This document shows positions 2 to 10,684 of a stretch of DNA of 64,000 bases, in pieces. Made by a program: the position numbers and the translations under genes. Source of the DNA: Sphingobacteriales bacterium (GTDB lineage: Bacteria > Bacteroidota > Bacteroidia > Sphingobacteriales > Sphingobacteriaceae); contig JAQBOG010000020.1 in NCBI GenBank assembly GCA_028288165.1, positions 39,463-103,462 on the forward strand, read 5' to 3'. The notes under the pieces are model-generated. The model worked only from the letters and a program-made list of their open reading frames with translations. It was not told where the DNA came from and did no database searches. Within the stretch, counting starts at the first letter, position 1, and every line of letters begins with the position of its first letter.

Positions 2-3000
2 GCTATTGGGGATAACCTAATGAGAATAGCTGAGAAAAAACCGTTTATTAAATTACAGGATGGAAAGCACGACCGGTACTTCAAACAATATAATCATCCT
101 TTTAAACTCTCGAAAGAAACTATCGATACATTTCCGGAGGATGAGGCCGAACAGTTTAAGACAGACTTATCTGTTGAATGCAAATTTCTTTTAGAGGTTA
201 ATGATATGGGTACGTTTATCCCGGCCAGTAACTCCAAATTGTATTTATACTATGCACTGGAACCGGTTACAGGTTTATCATTTGGTATTCATAGCTTCTT
301 TTCGGTCACTATTGAGAGAAAGTCTCTTACCAAAATCAGCCCGCTCAACGATTATTTATTTAAAGAAGCGGCTCGTTATTACGGGGATGAATTTTTATCT
401 CTTATTAAATCCGATCACCCTGATTCAGCATTGGAAATATTAGCCTACGAGCGAAAGGACAACGCTGGCTTGGAAAGCTTTTATACACTCCTGAAAACGA
501 ATTTAATCGGGAAGGCATTTATCAATCATCCGTTAGCTGGACATTACCTTCGTGCCGATGAGGTGTTACTGGTGAATAAAGATGAATTTAATCTGTTTAA
601 TGGCAAGCTGGGTGATAAGTTTTTATTTCAGGCACCAAACCAGACACTCGAAACATGGCTGATTAAGGAAGGAAATGTCGGAACACTTAATAACACCTAT
701 ATATTTAACCACATCGAGCCCAAGTGCGAAGAAAACAGTGTAAACCCATCATTTTTTCAAACTTTGTACAACTTAAACAAGATTTGGAAAGTAGACTTTG
801 GAAGTAAAAAGATCCTGCTAACGGAAAATGGGACATTAAAATCCGGCAATGATACGGAAGTATTTTACCTTTCAAAGGCAGAATATTCTACTCCCGAGAT
901 TTTGGAACGGTCACTGGCTTTTTTAAAAGCGGGTTTAAAAGTAGACGATTTTAACGACCAGCAGCGGAAGCAACTGGGTTTAACTGAATATAGTGAAGAA
1001 AGACTGCTTTCCGCAGCTTTAAGGCTATACCGGCGTGAGGTGAAATTTGAGTCAACTGATCAGGATTTGATCGGGTTAGAGATCATTCGTTTTCTTAAGC
1101 GGCTGAACCCCAACTCAAAGGGTCGAATTAAGGACGATATTTCATTTCCGGTCATACATAAAGCTACAGGTACCAGCGCCTGGAAAAATTTGATGCATAC
1201 ACCAGTATATTATTCCGATTTTGAATTCGGGACGGCTTATGAAAACGATTTCTATTATATAAATCTTGACCTGCTAAATACAGATAATGATTATGAGGGA
1301 TGGATGATGTTCGTAGAACAAACCGGTGTGTGGAAAATACCCGGAGCTTTTATTGAAACCGGCCGAAAAGAAATCCCAGACGAGGGGAGCTTCGTCGAAA
1401 ACGATCGTGAATTTCATAGTCCCACTGCTGAGATTTCCCATTTGTTCGGGCAATCCGTTATAGACAACTGGCTTAAATATCGTGATTTTGTCCTTGCACA
1501 AGACCCGCTAAGCAAGGCCATGAAGATTTCGGGCGGTTATAAGGATGATGTCACCCGTCTTGGTCATTCCGGCCTGGCTATTTATTTAAAAACCAGTTCC
1601 TGGCTTCCTGCTTTGGTTAAGGGACAACCGAAATTGAAAAGGCCAAGTGAAATCCTTGCCCTATCATCAGAGGAGTTTAACCGCACACATAACCAGGTAA
1701 TATTTGAATTTATGGATGTGATAAAATGTGATCATTTTATGCACCCTCAATTTTTATCGGATTTTGAAATTTGTCACCTCTCAATTTTTGCGCTGAACAA
1801 TTATAAAAATATATTACAGCTAGTGAATACCAGATACACCGCGCTAGATATTCCAGTGACGGAGAAAGGCAATTTCGAAAAGTTCTTCAATCGTATTTTA
1901 AGCTACCTGCACGATTATTTTCAGTCAAAACCAAAGGAAAGTACAGACTATCTTACGTTCAAGGAAGCCTTATTTCTCAGCAAATCCATAAATGATCAGT
2001 CCTTACATTGGACACTGGGAAAAAACACCATTCATATAGACAACAAACCCTTTTTAGATCGCATGGTAAGTAACGGTATAACACGTCACATTCCGGCCCC
2101 AAATGCATTTACTAAAAGAGACCGGGGCGAATGGGGGAAATACGCTTTAAGGATTGGGCGACAGCTTACCAAAATCATTATAACAACAATAGTTTCTGAA
2201 GGTCGAATCACCGGTTTGAGCAGTATTGTTGATTGCTTAGAAGTGATTATCGCTTTTGTAGAAGACGACCAGAATCAAAATTTCACAGCAGAGGTAATTG
2301 AATCATTGAAAGACGGCAATGTAAAAATACATAGTCCTTTGGACGTAGAAGCAACCGTCGACGGAATGATCATGACCCTTCCTCATGATTTTTATATAGA
2401 GGGCGACGGTGAATCTACCGTTTTGCATTTGGATAAAAAGCTTTTAGAAGGGGATTATAAACACTTGGCAGCATCGCTGGCGGCATTCTTTGAGCAGTTC
2501 ACAAGGAACGAAATGAAAAGGCTGGACTTAATGATTGAAGATAGTTTATTTTGCCATAACCAGGCTGAAAAATACACCTATGCCGTTAAGCGAAACATTG
2601 ATCAGGAAAGGCTGGAAGAAATAGCAGATGTATTAGCAAGGGGTATATTAATTTCAACTCCTGACCCTGTAGCTTCGGCTCCGGTAGGCAGGATTGTGAA
2701 CAACGCACCTGCCATAACGACTACCGTAACCAAAATCAAAACAGAAAAAGAAGTGGTAGAGGTAACTATTACCAATGGACACGATGCTTTTCTTGCCGAC
2801 CTTACACAAGCGGTGGGTCGGCCAGTTACTGAATTCGACGGTCCTACAATAACACCGGTTTTCGGGCATGTGAACTCGCCAAGAGGATTTGAACATGCCA
2901 ATGGAGATAACATGTTAAGAGAATATTCGGAGAACAGTTTAAAGGATATTGGATTTTATGGTGAGTATTTTATTTATAACAAGTTTATTAAAAAAGATCA

Positions 3001-3370
3001 ACAGCTACTTTCTCAGCTTGGTTTACATGATTCTAATAATTTTGAGTTAGAATGGTTCAATAAACATAGAATCAACAATAAGGATTTACCCGATCGAAGT
3101 ATGGGTATGGGTTGTGACATGCAAATAGCCATTTACGGGATTTTTATAGAGGTCAAGACTATGAAATCACAATCCGATATATTTCATATCACCGAAAAAG
3201 AATTTGGCAGGATGAAGATAGCCGGTAATAAATACTTCCTGGTGTTTGTTAAAAATATCTACTGCCCTGAAATTATAGATACGGAGGTAATGTGTAATCC
3301 TTATCAACATTTCCTTAATGGTCAATTGAGTTTCATAGAAGCGAAAATCGGCTTTAAATTCAAAATTTGA
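2..3370 (+). CDS. Large NOV_C (DUF3883) domain protein, 5' end outside the window
   Basis: The frame is open to the left edge. An ATG at position 20 gives 1116 aa, but the protein probably starts upstream. The last ~130 residues resemble the NOV_C/DUF3883 fold: a GxYGEYFIYNKF helix, then a Cys-Asp pair (Asp ~1033), the strand IEVKT (Glu ~1044, Lys ~1046), and a Y-x-LVFV strand, which together form a PD-(D/E)XK-like nuclease core. The central part has no motif I can name; its texture (for example FGIHSFFSVTIE) resembles large bacterial proteins with a sacsin-like GHKL ATPase at the N-terminus. No GHKL motifs lie in the visible part, so that link is inference. The stop is 3 nt before the next gene, so the two are probably co-translated. 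A defence role is suggested by the restriction and RloC-like genes nearby. No transmembrane or signal segment is seen. If the ATG at 20 is the true start, the protein lacks any ATPase. Confidence 0.75.
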   Translation, partial: AIGDNLMRIAEKKPFIKLQDGKHDRYFKQYNHPFKLSKETIDTFPEDEAEQFKTDLSVECKFLLEVNDMGTFIPASNSKLYLYYALEPVTGLSFGIHSFFSVTIERKSLTKISPLNDYLFKEAARYYGDEFLSLIKSDHPDSALEILAYERKDNAGLESFYTLLKTNLIGKAFINHPLAGHYLRADEVLLVNKDEFNLFNGKLGDKFLFQAPNQTLETWLIKEGNVGTLNNTYIFNHIEPKCEENSVNPSFFQTLYNLNKIWKVDFGSKKILLTENGTLKSGNDTEVFYLSKAEYSTPEILERSLAFLKAGLKVDDFNDQQRKQLGLTEYSEERLLSAALRLYRREVKFESTDQDLIGLEIIRFLKRLNPNSKGRIKDDISFPVIHKATGTSAWKNLMHTPVYYSDFEFGTAYENDFYYINLDLLNTDNDYEGWMMFVEQTGVWKIPGAFIETGRKEIPDEGSFVENDREFHSPTAEISHLFGQSVIDNWLKYRDFVLAQDPLSKAMKISGGYKDDVTRLGHSGLAIYLKTSSWLPALVKGQPKLKRPSEILALSSEEFNRTHNQVIFEFMDVIKCDHFMHPQFLSDFEICHLSIFALNNYKNILQLVNTRYTALDIPVTEKGNFEKFFNRILSYLHDYFQSKPKESTDYLTFKEALFLSKSINDQSLHWTLGKNTIHIDNKPFLDRMVSNGITRHIPAPNAFTKRDRGEWGKYALRIGRQLTKIIITTIVSEGRITGLSSIVDCLEVIIAFVEDDQNQNFTAEVIESLKDGNVKIHSPLDVEATVDGMIMTLPHDFYIEGDGESTVLHLDKKLLEGDYKHLAASLAAFFEQFTRNEMKRLDLMIEDSLFCHNQAEKYTYAVKRNIDQERLEEIADVLARGILISTPDPVASAPVGRIVNNAPAITTTVTKIKTEKEVVEVTITNGHDAFLADLTQAVGRPVTEFDGPTITPVFGHVNSPRGFEHANGDNMLREYSENSLKDIGFYGEYFIYNKFIKKDQQLLSQLGLHDSNNFELEWFNKHRINNKDLPDRSMGMGCDMQIAIYGIFIEVKTMKSQSDIFHITEKEFGRMKIAGNKYFLVFVKNIYCPEIIDTEVMCNPYQHFLNGQLSFIEAKIGFKFKI

Positions 3371-3373
3371 TCA

Positions 3374-3985
3374 ATGGCTATTCCTGACAGTACCTTTTTC
3401 GGGCCTGAAAATATTTCTTTTGGACAATTACGCCAAACTTCAGATCCTTTAGAAAAAATAGGCTTACTAAAAAAACGACTTGATAGCTTTTTCATCAGTC
3501 AGATTGATGCGCTTGATAAAAGATCGCCTTTTGTTGTCGCTATTATGTCTTGCATAGCCATAGAAACTTTAGGCACTATATTTTTTGATAAGGGAAAAGA
3601 TAACGGCCAATCATATCGTTTTAATTTGGTTTTGGCTAAAATAGATCAGAAATTTTCCAGGCCCTTAACGAAAGAGTTTAAAGAAAATTACAAAAAACAA
3701 TGGCCCGAAAAAGTTAAACTTGAGGCATCTACCCGCGGAGATCTTTTATATTCTTATTTAAGAAATACCATGATACATGGTTATTACGCACAGGCATTTT
3801 ATCTAAATGACGAAGAAGGTTTTACCTGGAAAGAAAAGGAAGGATACTTCATTATCAACCCACATTGGTTCTGGGTCAAAGTAAAAAATATCTATGGCCT
3901 TATAATCGACGAGGCTACTAATCCCAAAAAACAAAGCGCTTATAAAGTAAATGCGTTAAAATATTTAGAGGATATTGGTAAATGA
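3374..3985 (+). CDS. Small HEPN-like protein paired with the NOV_C protein
   Basis: This 203-aa soluble protein begins 3 nt after the stop of the large NOV_C gene. It is mostly helical by composition. Around residue ~135 it carries RNTMIHG, which matches the R-(N)-x3-H signature of HEPN-domain RNases and of their non-catalytic relatives. An upstream helix (FVVAIMSCIAIETLGTIFF) would be the second long HEPN helix. HEPN proteins often act as the toxic RNase or as a partner of ATPases and nucleases in phage defence, and the tight coupling here fits such a pair. The family assignment rests on this one motif and on helical character, so it is tentative. A plain structural partner protein is the main alternative. 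Confidence 0.7.
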   Translation: MAIPDSTFFGPENISFGQLRQTSDPLEKIGLLKKRLDSFFISQIDALDKRSPFVVAIMSCIAIETLGTIFFDKGKDNGQSYRFNLVLAKIDQKFSRPLTKEFKENYKKQWPEKVKLEASTRGDLLYSYLRNTMIHGYYAQAFYLNDEEGFTWKEKEGYFIINPHWFWVKVKNIYGLIIDEATNPKKQSAYKVNALKYLEDIGK

Positions 3986-4216: not shown

Positions 4217-4930
4217 TTAGATTTCACGGTACATCAGTTGATAGTGGCGCAGAGATTTATCTCCATTATCGGCTATAAAGTCAAAGTAATCCCTGTCATT
4301 ATTTAAAGAGATGTTACCGATGATTTGAAAGCTGTCATCTAGTATAGGTAATATCTCGGGATAGTTCCGTTCCCTGAAGTTCTCTTGGTCGCCAGGGCCC
4401 AGGCGAATGAATGGATTATAGGCACGATTCATTAACAAATGGGTGTCCCAGTCAAGTTCACCATTTTGCGGATGCTTTCCTCCAATCATTTCCCAATATG
4501 GGAAAAGACGATCAGCTAAGGGCATGTATTTTTGAGCCATACCCACTTGCCATTTTTTATAAAACCGCTCTTCCAATTCTTCCAAGGATACCAATTTGAC
4601 ATTAGTTTTTTCAGCGGCTTCATAGCTACCTTTCTGAAAACCATTTTTGGAAACAATAAATCCAAAATTTGCCCCTGCATCATTGATTACAGAACGAAAC
4701 GAGTGAATAGTTTCTTGGTTGACAGGTTTATTCCAGAACTTGCATTCAATAAGAAAAGTTGTATCATATTCACTGGTATGGTCACGAACGTAAACATCTA
4801 TTTCTTTTTGGCCCCTAACCAAATCAATAACCGTAGAAACTTCAACGGTATATCCGATTTCAGTAAAAAGTTGCCCAACCATATCCTGAAGTTCCTGCCA
4901 CGTAGAAGGCCTTGAGTTAAAAATTTGCAT
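4217..4930 (-). CDS. Mrr-like restriction endonuclease
   Basis: From the ATG at 4930 this gives 237 aa. An in-frame extension to 5005 has only a TTG start and adds 25 residues unlike the family. The N-terminal 125 residues are an Mrr-type restriction endonuclease domain: helix RPSTWQELQDMVGQLF, then strand KEIDVYV (Asp45), strand FLIECKFW (Glu62, Lys64) completing the PD-(D/E)XK site, and a VSKNGFQKG turn. The C-terminal ~110 residues are unassigned and may recognise DNA or a partner. Mrr-family enzymes cut modified or foreign DNA and often stand alone. It lies among other defence-type genes and converges with the NOV_C/HEPN pair. The catalytic residues appear complete. The target specificity cannot be read from the sequence. 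Confidence 0.85.
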   Translation of the reverse strand: MQIFNSRPSTWQELQDMVGQLFTEIGYTVEVSTVIDLVRGQKEIDVYVRDHTSEYDTTFLIECKFWNKPVNQETIHSFRSVINDAGANFGFIVSKNGFQKGSYEAAEKTNVKLVSLEELEERFYKKWQVGMAQKYMPLADRLFPYWEMIGGKHPQNGELDWDTHLLMNRAYNPFIRLGPGDQENFRERNYPEILPILDDSFQIIGNISLNNDRDYFDFIADNGDKSLRHYQLMYREI

Positions 4931-5555
4931 AGGGAATTTAATACGTTTGAAATTTTGAATATGTACAAAGAGAAATCTCGTTATACTGGCTCTAAATAAA
5001 CTCAAGACTATAAAGTTAGCAATTACTTCATATGGATATTAGGACAAAAAATCTTACTTAAAAAAAATTAAAAGACACTGAACGTATCAAAATGATACCT
5101 GTCGAATCAATAAAATTAAGCCAAGGGCTACCGTATGGTGCATGACAAAAAGCCTGCAACTAATCCGTCACAGCAATTAAATCCGTAGTTCTTTTTTTTA
5201 TGAGGCGCATCAATGATTTAAAAGGGTGCATCGAGTAAAAAGGCCTGCTGACATTCAAATTTGTACGAGTCGCAGGATAAAGTCCGATGATTTGACGAGT
5301 CGCTAATTGTAAGTAGGAAACGATATATTAATGAACATCCTGATATAATGCAGTTCGGTTTTTGTTTCTACGCGATACCCTGGCGCTGTTCGCTGGTGCG
5401 GTAAAAGGACATTTGTAAGGTATGTGTCTTGACGGTGAGAGAAATGCCGAAATTCAGGTCCTTATATAAATCAGCACAGGCAGAGATAGCGAAACTGCGG
5501 TAACCGTAAAAAAAACGAATATTACTAAAAATATTAGTATTTTTACACTGTCAAT
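4931..5555. other. Non-coding spacer with short dyads
   Basis: About 620 bp between the divergent Mrr-like gene and the 94-aa gene. I see no convincing gene. It contains a 15-bp dyad (GTATCA-aaa-TGATAC at 5084-5098) some 150 bp upstream of the endonuclease start, and two copies of ACGAGTCGC about 30 bp apart near 5266-5305. Either could be regulatory, but nothing shows this directly. Confidence 0.4.
5523..5539. promoter_or_regulatory. Operator-like dyad upstream of the 94-aa gene
   Basis: TACTAA-aaata-TTAGTA lies 17-33 bp upstream of the ATG at 5556, inside an AT-rich stretch where a promoter would sit. The symmetry and position suggest an operator, possibly for autoregulation. There is no direct evidence. 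Confidence 0.35.
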
Positions 5556-5840
5556 ATGAATACCTTTCTCATCACCGCTAATATCAAAGGCTTAGACACG
5601 AAGATTGTAGTCGAAGAGCCTCCACAATGGGATGTGCCGGAGTTTGCTGTTTCGATTAATAATCCTGCTCTCAGGGAACGCTTCTCTATTCGATTACATC
5701 ATGGCTTAAGGGAGCGTTTACCTGTTAATTCAACCTCCAGCCTGGAACCCTTGGAAGTCGAGCACATAGGTCTAGAGATCGCCAAATGCTGGCGAACCCG
5801 GTTGAGTAAGACACTCGACCTGTTTGAGCAGCTTTTTTAG
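5556..5840 (+). CDS. Unknown 94-aa protein
   Basis: I do not recognise this protein. It is soluble and mixed in charge, starts MNTFLITANIKGLDTKIVVE, and has a middle rich in Arg and Leu (RERFSIRLHHGLRERLP). No helix-turn-helix, signal peptide or membrane segment stands out. It has an AT-rich upstream region with a dyad. Its stop overlaps the stop of the convergent RloC-like gene by 2 nt (TAG at 5838-5840, TAA of the other gene at 5837-5839). In this setting it could be a small accessory or protective protein of a defence module, but that is position-based inference only. Confidence 0.6.
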   Translation: MNTFLITANIKGLDTKIVVEEPPQWDVPEFAVSINNPALRERFSIRLHHGLRERLPVNSTSSLEPLEVEHIGLEIAKCWRTRLSKTLDLFEQLF

Positions 5841-8414
5841 GCTTTTGGCTTCGCCATTACTTTTGCCCTGATCGTTATATAACGTTGTACTTCGGTGTTG
5901 AGATCCTCCAATTCAGGTTTGCGGTATGGAAGTCCGTCACTATGCGAGTGGCCTTCCATGAACTTACAGCAATCATAGAAGCCGGATGAGATTTCGTCCC
6001 TGATAGTATTGTCGAAATTGACGGTTTTCAAGGTATCAACGCTGACCCGCTCATTAAACCGTTGAACAACATTTTTGAAGAGTCCGTTAATTACTAATAC
6101 TTCATAGCAAGTGCGCAGGCTGGTAAAACCGTCTCTGATAAAGGTTTCCCTATCTTTGGCCGAACATTCAGGTTTTTTAGCAGCAGTGTAATGGGCAATT
6201 GGTATATTCTGGTTTCGATAATCCTTTTCGTAAGATGGCGCATTTTCAAGTGAGATGTAACCCGGCTTACCATCGCGCTGTTCGATCCAGTGACAAACGT
6301 GCTCCTTACCATAATCCTGGCAATAGGTGATCAGTTGGGATACAAACACTAAGTCGTGGGTAAAGACTACAATTTGCCGCTCGGATGATTCTTCGATCAG
6401 GCGTTCGGCAATATGGCTTTTGCGTTTTTCATCGAGCGAATTTACAGGGTCATCAAAAATGATTCCTTTGTTAATGCCCGATAAAATGGTTTCTGATAAA
6501 AAATCAGCTAACGAAATCACTTTTTGTTCGCCTTCGCTGAGTACATCGGAAGGTTGCCGCCCTTTTAGGCTGAGCTGACGAAAAGAGGTGCCGGCAGAAC
6601 CGGTATGCGTTACATTAATACCAAATGCCCCTTTTAAACGAACACATTCAGCATTGAAACGATCTATGTAGGCCTGATTAAAATACAAGCCTGATAACTC
6701 TTTTTCCTTGGTGGTGATCTCACGTTTCGAGATTTTGGCTTTGGCTTTAACTGCTTTATCCGTCCAGACCAAGTTTTCTATTGCCTTTTCTATAGTTGAA
6801 ATATGGTCACCGAGTTTTTCCTTGTGATTGAATACGGTAATCTGTTTTTGAAGTTTTTCAATTGCTTCAGCCACATCAGCCTCCTTTAATCTTTTGATCC
6901 GGCTTCCGATATCTTCAGTAATTCTATCTATCACAGCGGTATCGATTTGTGCGGATTGGTAACTCACGAACTTTTTATCGCTAATGTCTCGTGTAATAGC
7001 GTCCCTGAGTTTCAGCTGCGTTTGGAGCTCGGCCATGATAACACCCATTTCAGTCGCCTTATTCTCCGATAACCATTTATACAAGATACCCGTATCGGGC
7101 AAAATATTCAGATCCAATTTGCATAGTGCATCTTTGGAGGTCGCTAAAGCGGCCTGTGCATCCTTGCTGTCCTGTTCGGCCTTGCTTTTGATAAATGCCC
7201 AATAGGCGCTCACCAGCGATGCGGCCTCTCCTGTCAGCGGTTGCTGGCATAACAAGCAGCTATCATCCGGTTGGGGATAGCTAAGCCCTCCTTTGTCTTG
7301 CAAACGGGCAAATACATCAGCGGCCGCTATAAATGTCCGCCATTCAGCCCCGCCGATCTGACCAAGCGACGTTTTTTTAAACTGATCAATATCATGACCC
7401 GCCGCTAAAAGTTCCTTTTCAACGCAGTCCTTAACTTTATCGTTCGCTTTAGTCAACTGATCAACCGTGAAATATCTGTTCAAACTATTGCTGGCAGTTT
7501 TTAAACTGGCCAGCAGTATTTGTTGCTGTTCTAAATCCTGAATTTTCCTTATCTTTTTTCAATATGGTCAAAGCCGCTTTTTCACCTTCTAATTTAGTCC
7601 GTTCAGCTTTATCTTCGGATGTAAAAGGCAGTAGCGCCTTCAAGTGTTCAATCTTAGACTTAGCCGATAGCTCGGCAACCATATTTTTAATATTAGATTC
7701 TCCATCAAATAAGGCAGTCAAGTTCGTGCTACTGGCATGCCTATCGATATCCGCCTGGGCCAGTTCTTCCAGAATCTTATAAGCCTCGTTCAGGTCAGCA
7801 AAAAAGGAAAGCCCGGCAGGACGGAAATTGAACTGATTTTTATTGTTCAAATGGGCATGCACCGCTTTTTCGTCAAAAACGGAAAATTGTTTAAACTCTG
7901 CGTGGCCGCAATCGGCCGGATAGTGAAAAACTGATTTTGTGCCCGCCGATTCAAAAGTAAATTCCGCCGCTTTGTTCGCAGGCGTACCCGCATTATGAAC
8001 ATTGGGCAGAATAGTTTTATCACCTTTGGTAATGAACACATTGTTTAATAAACGAATATAGCCTGATTTACCCGAGCCATTAGCTCCATAAACGATGGTC
8101 AGGTTCGACCCGAAAGTCATTACTTGGTCTGGCACGAGCGCATTGATACCCGTTACACCTAAAATTTTCAGCAATTTCAGATCGTCTTTATAATAACCCG
8201 ATTCCGTCTTACAGATAACCGCGATTTCCGGCCGTTCAGTTTTTCCAGACAGCCCAGCATCTTCCAGGAAATACTGATAAGAGGCTTGATGATCTTCATC
8301 TGCTAATGCTACCCCCGATAATAATTTTGCCGATAGGAGTTGCGACCAATAGGGCAGTCCCTTGGTAAAAGAAAGGATATCGGTTTCTAAAGTCCTTGGA
8401 ATTTCACTCGGCAT
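5837..8414 (-). pseudogene. RloC/PrrC-like AAA_13 zinc-hook ATPase, split by a frameshift
   Basis: Two adjacent reading frames form one protein of about 860 aa. The first (8414-7485) carries Walker A GANGSGKS at residues 110-117. The second (ending 5837) carries a CLLC zinc-hook pair, then signature LSEGEQK, Walker B IIFDDPVNSLD and switch FTHD. This is the SMC/Rad50-like AAA_13 architecture of anticodon nucleases RloC and PrrC. Near the C-terminus there is an R-x3-E (RTCYE) and a His cluster (HSHSD) 51 residues later, reminiscent of the PrrC/RloC Arg-Glu-His triad. The frames join if the A6 run (T6 at 7554-7559) is read as A5: the second frame then extends upstream as KIQDLEQQQILLASLKTASN before NRYFTV. 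Either the gene is disrupted, or the run length is a sequencing error. A programmed shift would need +1 and is less likely. Without repair the ATP-binding site is split between two polypeptides. Confidence 0.75.
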
Positions 8415-9466: not shown

Positions 9467-10684
9467 ATGAAAACTAACTTCAGCTTGCTTTTCTATTTGA
9501 AAAAGCCCAAAAATTACCAAGGCGGTTTAATGCCAATCTACCTTCGGATTACTGTCAATGGTCAACGTTCTGAGACTACGGCGTGTAGAGAGTGCTACCC
9601 ATCGAACTAGAACGGTATCGCCGGAAGACTAAAAGGAACGAAGGAGGATACAAAATCCTTCAATGCCTATTTAGATAATTTGCAAAAGCAAGTTTACGAC
9701 GCACATGCTCAATTAAGTGAAACGCAAAACGTAATCACCGCGGAAAGCCTTAAAAATAAGTTTTTATGTAAAGATGAAAAAGCACGAATGCTTATTGCCG
9801 TATTTAAAGACCATAATAAGAAAATCGGCGCACTAGTAGGCAAAGAATACGCCCAAGGTACGTATGTACGGTATCAGACCTCCCTCAAGCATACTCAGGA
9901 TTTTTTGCAATGGAAATACAAGTTATCTGATATTGATATTAAGAAAATAGATCACGATTTCGTCACCAATTATGAGTTCTATCTACGTTCAGAACGTAAT
10001 TGCGCAAACAATTCTGCCTTCAAGTATATTAAAAACTTTAAAAAGGTTGTGGGCATTTGCTTGTCGAGCGGATGGTTACATAAAGACCCTTTTACCAACT
10101 ACAAAATAAGGATTAAGCAGATTGACAGAGTTTTCCTTAATGAGGATGATTTACAAAAGATGGCTGACAAGGTATTTTCTACTGAACGACTCAATCAAGT
10201 CAGAGATATATTTCTTTTTTGTTGTTTCACTGGTTTAGCTTATGCAGACGTCAAGAAGCTAAAAAGAAACGAGATTGTAAAAGGTCCGGACGGCGAAATG
10301 TGGATTTACACAAAGCGAATGAAAACGGATACTCCAAGTAGAATACCCTTGCTGCCGTCAGCGCTAAATTTGCTTAGTAAATACGAGGATCATCCAATCT
10401 GTTCAAATTTGGGCAGCGCACTTCCTGTAAGCACTAATCAAAAAATGAACGCTTATTTGAAGGAGATAGCGGGGATATGCGGAATAGACAAAACCCTCAC
10501 CTTTCATATAGCCCGCCATACATTTGCTACTACGGTTACCCTCTCAAATGGGGTTCCTATTGAAACTGTAAGTAAGATGCTAGGACACACCAATATCAAG
10601 ACAACACAGCACTACGCAAGAATCCTTGATTTAAAAGTAAGTAAAGACATGGCGACTCTTAAACAAAAATACCCAGCCCTTTAG
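9467..10684 (+). pseudogene. Tyrosine recombinase with an in-frame amber codon
   Basis: Bacteroidota conjugative-transposon type site-specific recombinase. The ATG at 9467 starts MKTNFSLLFYLKKPKNYQGG, the arm-binding domain. A TAG at 9608-9610 stops it after 47 codons. The same frame continues as NGIAGRLKGTKEDTKSFNAY with no shift, so one base change (probably TGG, Trp, to TAG) explains the break. The remaining part, with an internal ATG at 9680 giving 334 aa, keeps the core-binding domain and catalytic HIARH (H-x-x-R), LGH and nucleophile HYARI. The first catalytic Arg is replaced (TGLAYAD), as is common in this family (IntDOT also lacks it). A restart at 9680 would give a recombinase without its arm-binding domain. 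It is probably inactive unless the stop is suppressed or is an error. Confidence 0.85.

Follow-up and report, generated by a model that had tools for sequence, protein, structure and literature searches.

In a 64,000-base stretch of a Sphingobacteriales genome assembly (GCA_028288165.1, contig JAQBOG010000020.1, bases 39463-103462; hereafter the window), a gene related to TmtA of the Tiamat defence system is followed directly by a small gene for a HEPN-like protein. On balance, and with modest confidence, we read the pair as one two-gene unit, whose HEPN product would likely cleave RNA as a second line once the initial attack on a phage has failed. A sequence-only reading of the window had proposed the pair as a candidate defence system. 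This was a real observation with both folds well read, and what keeps it interesting is the HEPN-like family, which would be a transferable partner for defences that attack DNA. New are the family itself, its position following a Tiamat gene and its occurrence with several first-line defences of unrelated kinds. The unit comprises:

2..3370, plus strand: TmtA (Tiamat)-related gene, 3' part (open frame in the window, PADLOC and domain matches)
2927..3337, plus strand: NOV_C, predicted PD-(D/E)XK nuclease domain, about residues 1208-1344 (Pfam profile, alignment, model)
3374..3985, plus strand: HEPN-like partner gene, 203 amino acids, unnamed family with 58 database relatives (frame, alignment, model)
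3761..3778, plus strand: HEPN-type RxxxxH motif, R130-N-T-M-I-H135 (alignment)

The left edge of the window cuts into the large gene, so the contig was followed leftward. The whole gene (L002:5269-9333) starts 695 bases left of the window and encodes 1354 amino acids, with a sacsin-type GHKL ATPase domain at the N-terminus and NOV_C at the C-terminus. The ATPase core (residues 59-141) is encoded left of the window, which is where the sequence-only reading had suggested looking for it. Seven TmtA models of PADLOC match the protein by E-value, the best at 2.6e-75 (residues 44-1113 on 33-1140 of 1538), and NF047352 matches the N-terminal ATPase at 4.4e-20. By sequence, the large protein therefore goes with the TmtA/Tiamat relatives, and the earlier remark that the pair was not recognised as a named system has to be corrected for this half. 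An alignment of 17 TmtA relatives shows the ATPase residues E63, N67, D70, K125, G126 and G128 to be identical in all of them. The second ATPase motif (residues 95-97) reads NNG in 16 of the 17 and NTG in one, whereas in Hsp90-type ATPases this motif is usually DxG. At the other end, PF13020 (NOV_C) scores 28.0 bits, above the Pfam cut-off of 22.1, in agreement with the earlier description of a protein of more than 1100 amino acids ending in a NOV_C core with Asp and E-V-K residues. In the alignment E1220, D1271, E1282 and K1284 are invariant in 17/17 relatives, giving the conserved D...ExK residues of such nucleases. The predicted C-terminal model is similar to PD-(D/E)XK nucleases, which is consistent with a DNA-nuclease-like part. 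Tiamat is known as a single-gene system. The protein resembles it in the TmtA profile match and the GHKL/sacsin-type ATPase at the front, but the best profile match stops at residue 1113, short of the NOV_C end, and in the window a HEPN-like gene directly follows.

The TGA of the large gene (3368-3370) and the ATG of the partner gene at 3374 share a reading frame and are separated by a single codon, the 3-base gap that had been read from the sequence before. Since the clear gene to the left and the Mrr-type gene to the right are both on the opposite strand, the large gene and the 203-codon gene make an isolated two-gene unit, and they would be carried on one transcript. The partner protein matched no Pfam, PADLOC or NCBIfam family. 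Among the 22 Pfam families listed for 55 members of its family at E <= 1 there was no HEPN family, and PADLOC gave seven families, each matched by 1-3 of the same 55 (best 0.0022), which we take as chance. The case for HEPN comes from the motif and the predicted fold. All 55 aligned relatives keep R130 and H135, and the residue after R (position 131) is polar throughout, N in 46 and T in nine. The motif RNxxxH by itself is weak evidence: it occurs in five of 101 open reading frames of 120-350 amino acids in 14 stretches, two of which are the window partner and its relative in L010, and two are genes adjoining other TmtA genes (L028, L030). Judged by sequence, it is strong evidence here because R130 and H135 are kept in every aligned member. 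The structure model (pLDDT, the predicted local distance difference test, 90.7) fits HEPN proteins best, with modest Z scores from 5.9 to 2.8. Motif and model together agree with the HEPN-like part of the sequence-only reading, and the product would likely cut RNA.

Among known HEPN proteins, Tha is a tail-activated anti-phage ribonuclease (RNase) of S. aureus prophages which, once activated by a phage tail protein, degrades RNA and inhibits both host and phage (PMC11087260). The partner shares with it a near-identical motif (RNSIMH in Tha, RNTMIH in the partner) and the occurrence of phage-borne members. Tha differs in being a single gene of 301 codons with its own N-terminal part, and the likeness is one of motif. 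AbiV, a Lactococcus HEPN RNase (PDB 9bj7, 9bj6), has 10% identity to the partner and typically lacks the H of the HEPN motif (PMC3710099). The partner was also considered as an MNT-HEPN toxin-antitoxin member and rejected, since there is no nucleotidyltransferase gene beside it, the window neighbours being the TmtA-like and Mrr genes.

The samples used to follow the pair through other genomes (order, phylum, genus and family) overlap. Of 400 genomes sampled from the order, 10 carry a TmtA relative, counting that of the window, and at none of the nine other TmtA loci does a frame of at least 80 amino acids within about 4-6 kb to either side match the partner profile (E <= 10). Conversely, tblastn found no TmtA relative in any of the four other settings of the partner. 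On these two results we reject a conserved new two-gene system for the genome contigs read, where the exact pair fails the conservation check that came with the sequence-only reading. The partner profile matched four genomes of the order, of which one (G390; E 1.8e-4, six stops) was dropped, so that 3/400 is the fair count. It was dropped because it is absent from the genus result, where a larger profile matched only G296 among 149 genomes although this sample should include G390, and from the 3/399 matches in the family. G390 also carries a TmtA relative (L024:7970-9685, minus strand) that is 88% identical to that of the window, broken after about 571 residues, with no partner beside it. In the phylum sample the partner profile matched one of 395 genomes, the window's own. 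No partner match was found among the plasmids or phages searched. In viral contigs three of four queries gave none and the remaining one gave two, identical over 14,996 bases; no TmtA was confirmed there. A Foldseek search against viral models gave nothing at E <= 0.001. The single-protein search of genome contigs gave no partner match, and an alignment-based search then found one, L004. The five settings of the family are:

Setting 1, window, plus strand: partner 3 bases behind the TmtA-related gene
Setting 2, L004: RhuM-family gene (PADLOC PDC-S05) whose end the partner overlaps by 4 bases, at a contig edge
Setting 3, L009: partner 22 bases behind a gene for 212 amino acids, itself 1 base behind a PvuRts1I-like SRA enzyme (PADLOC mREase_II)
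Setting 4, L010: no tight coupling; a Panacea-antitoxin gene and its neighbour lie 0.6 kb ahead of the partner, and a DndFGH run follows it after 0.85 kb
Setting 5, L032:10001-10660 and L033:4343-5002 (same DNA, phage contig): partner among small genes between tail and head genes

In three of the five, the partner closes a compact run of same-strand genes that includes a defence gene. In the three-gene run of L009 (9041-11247, minus strand), the 212-residue protein between the PvuRts1I-like SRA endonuclease and the HEPN-like gene gave no significant hit in Pfam or PADLOC and is perhaps a further defence component without a name. The L010 member has the motif RNSFSH and lacks the following G. 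The phage-contig member has RHTMAH, its nearest defence-like match being a methyltransferase-like piece 0.5 kb in front, and it is possibly a phage-carried defence gene. Since the family also stands beside other defence genes in three of the four other places where it was found, the HEPN-like family is probably a plug-in part and not the fixed half of a new two-gene system.

We propose that the unit works in layers. Infection would trigger the GHKL-type ATPase of the TmtA-related protein, which would act as the sensor, and its NOV_C domain would cut phage DNA. The HEPN protein would act as an RNase that stops cell growth if the attack by TmtA fails, and would be an exchangeable add-on to several first-line systems and not a Tiamat subunit. 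Layered defence has been proposed elsewhere for HEPN genes in restriction loci, beside RhuM, or fused to GHKL paraMORC ATPases (PMC3710099), and for BREX-related and Dnd systems a back-up role of HEPN RNases has been suggested (PMC12839542, PMC10853773). With these the unit shares a GHKL ATPase together with a HEPN protein, here a putative RNase, in restriction loci and HEPN in the proposed role of auxiliary effector. The paraMORC-Ymh proteins are fusions with a Ymh-type HEPN and a paraMORC ATPase, whereas the window has separate genes, a sacsin-type ATPase and no Pfam HEPN match. Sacsin likewise combines its type of ATPase with a HEPN domain, but it is eukaryotic, and its single chain combines three Hsp90-like units with DnaJ and HEPN, with no nuclease domain listed (PMC3710099). 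In the open-licence literature, as far as its text was available, HEPN and Tiamat co-occur solely as list items, and HEPN together with PvuRts1I, DndFGH or RhuM brought up no report of the partner family.

The partner could instead be an anti-phage RNase that works on its own, as Tha does, and just happens to lie next to TmtA in a defence island with no joint action of the two genes; we regard this as rather unlikely. The exact TmtA-partner pair was seen once, one relative lies on a phage contig, the L010 copy is 0.85 kb away from DndF, and Tha is a single HEPN protein that stops growth upon activation by a phage protein (PMC11087260). Still, the tight same-strand runs with the partner in last position (the 3-base gap, the 4-base overlap, and the 22-base spacing behind a gene 1 base after its endonuclease) favour joint action, without proving it. 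In another reading the pair would be a fixed two-gene Tiamat subtype of a narrow lineage: the TmtA ATPase would activate the HEPN protein as its effector subunit, and the two together would correspond to a sacsin divided over two chains. The one-codon spacing in the same frame, the close database relatives of both proteins (P0002 at 93% for the partner, on a contig of 4,763 bases; P0060 at 87% for TmtA, on one of 9,895 bases) and the sacsin and GHKL-HEPN fusions on record (PMC3710099) all agree with this. Yet unbroken TmtA relatives at 26-45% identity occur without the partner, and a comparison of 16 TmtA with 58 partner clusters found no longest contig of equal size, an indirect sign since a cluster can cover several contigs. 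Among the clusters so compared are P0003 and P0007, relatives of the partner at 60 and 58% whose contigs measure 24,215 and 36,743 bases. We hold a fixed subtype to be improbable. Hardly any weight can be given to a toxin-antitoxin-like pair, in which the HEPN protein is toxic and restrained by TmtA until phage attack. The tight coupling of the two genes would suit it and HEPN toxins with inhibitors are known from MNT-HEPN (PMC3710099), but in the stretches read there are relatives of the partner with no TmtA relative, and TmtA is therefore not a required antitoxin of the whole partner family.

The idea of two genes gains in a looser sense when the neighbours of the other TmtA genes are considered. 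Four of the nine other loci have a nuclease-like gene on the same strand within 300 bases of TmtA or overlapping it:

L025:9416-10576: PLD-type gene overlapping the TmtA end (PLDc_2 8.2e-15; PADLOC DrmC 3.8e-7)
L027:2515-3675, minus strand: Mrr-type gene directly behind TmtA (Mrr_cat_2 22.5 bits, cut-off 22)
L028:3664-4626: gene for 320 amino acids directly in front of TmtA, motif RNRVIH (HepT-like 0.016, below the Pfam cut-off)
L030:4157-4885: gene for 242 amino acids directly in front of TmtA, motif RNQIVH (RiboL-PSP-HEPN 0.0083, below cut-off; PADLOC Csx1/Csm6 4.3e-4)

So the exact pair is not kept, but two of the nine loci (L028, L030) have a weakly HEPN-like neighbour of another family than that of the window partner. 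At L023, L029 and L031 there was no nuclease among the scanned genes adjoining TmtA; the TmtA of L026 has its neighbours on the opposite strand, outside the domain scan, and that of L024 is broken. That TmtA often has a second nuclease-like gene beside it is a hint from an uncontrolled count. A wider reading, which we offer tentatively and with more doubt than belief, would make Tiamat a hub, that is, a sacsin-type ATPase repeatedly paired with an exchangeable second nuclease (HEPN, PLD, Mrr). The HEPN RNase family, absent from Pfam and PADLOC, would then be a plug-in for a second strike, moving between defences that attack DNA but are otherwise unrelated (Tiamat, PvuRts1I-type, RhuM, Dnd) and responding to one danger sign common to them; together with TmtA it would be the bacterial equivalent of sacsin in two chains, uniting an Hsp90-like ATPase, a DNA nuclease and an RNase.

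If the proposed back-up role is true, several first-line defences of unrelated kinds share one small RNase family, and the trigger becomes a question for experiment: which feature common to Tiamat, a modified-DNA endonuclease, RhuM and Dnd can a HEPN protein read? The unit would also provide a bacterial model, small and separable, for the cooperation of a sacsin-type ATPase and a HEPN protein. For Tiamat, the PD-(D/E)XK-like end and the exchangeable second nuclease would give a lead to the mechanism.

The surroundings of the unit contain further defence genes and parts of a mobile element:

4217..5005, minus strand: Mrr-type restriction endonuclease gene, convergent neighbour (Mrr_cat 1e-16)
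5837..8414, minus strand: AAA-ATPase gene, PADLOC PDC-S06 best (two frames, 5837-7483 and 7485-8414)
9680..10684, plus strand: tyrosine integrase, likely the right part of a mobile island (domain match)
L002:1737-3084, minus strand, left of the window: MobA-type relaxase and MobC/NikA-type genes (domain match)

The restriction and RloC-like neighbourhood described from the sequence is broadly borne out by the Mrr-type gene and the defence genes around it, while 'RloC-like' was loose for the AAA-ATPase gene, for which PDC-S06 is best and the PrrC match is weak (7.1e-6). Comparison of the 24 kb on the left with the window's first 14 kb gave no exact direct repeat of at least 15 bases, and there was neither a tRNA nor a relative close enough to show an empty site at the island ends. 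Left of the unit, helix-turn-helix genes accompany the relaxase and MobC/NikA genes (L002:1096-4177), and the TmtA-partner unit likely lies within a mobilisable island carrying defence cargo. The halves of the PDC-S06-type gene encode 309 and 548 amino acids, and as it is split over two frames the gene is likely broken in this assembly.

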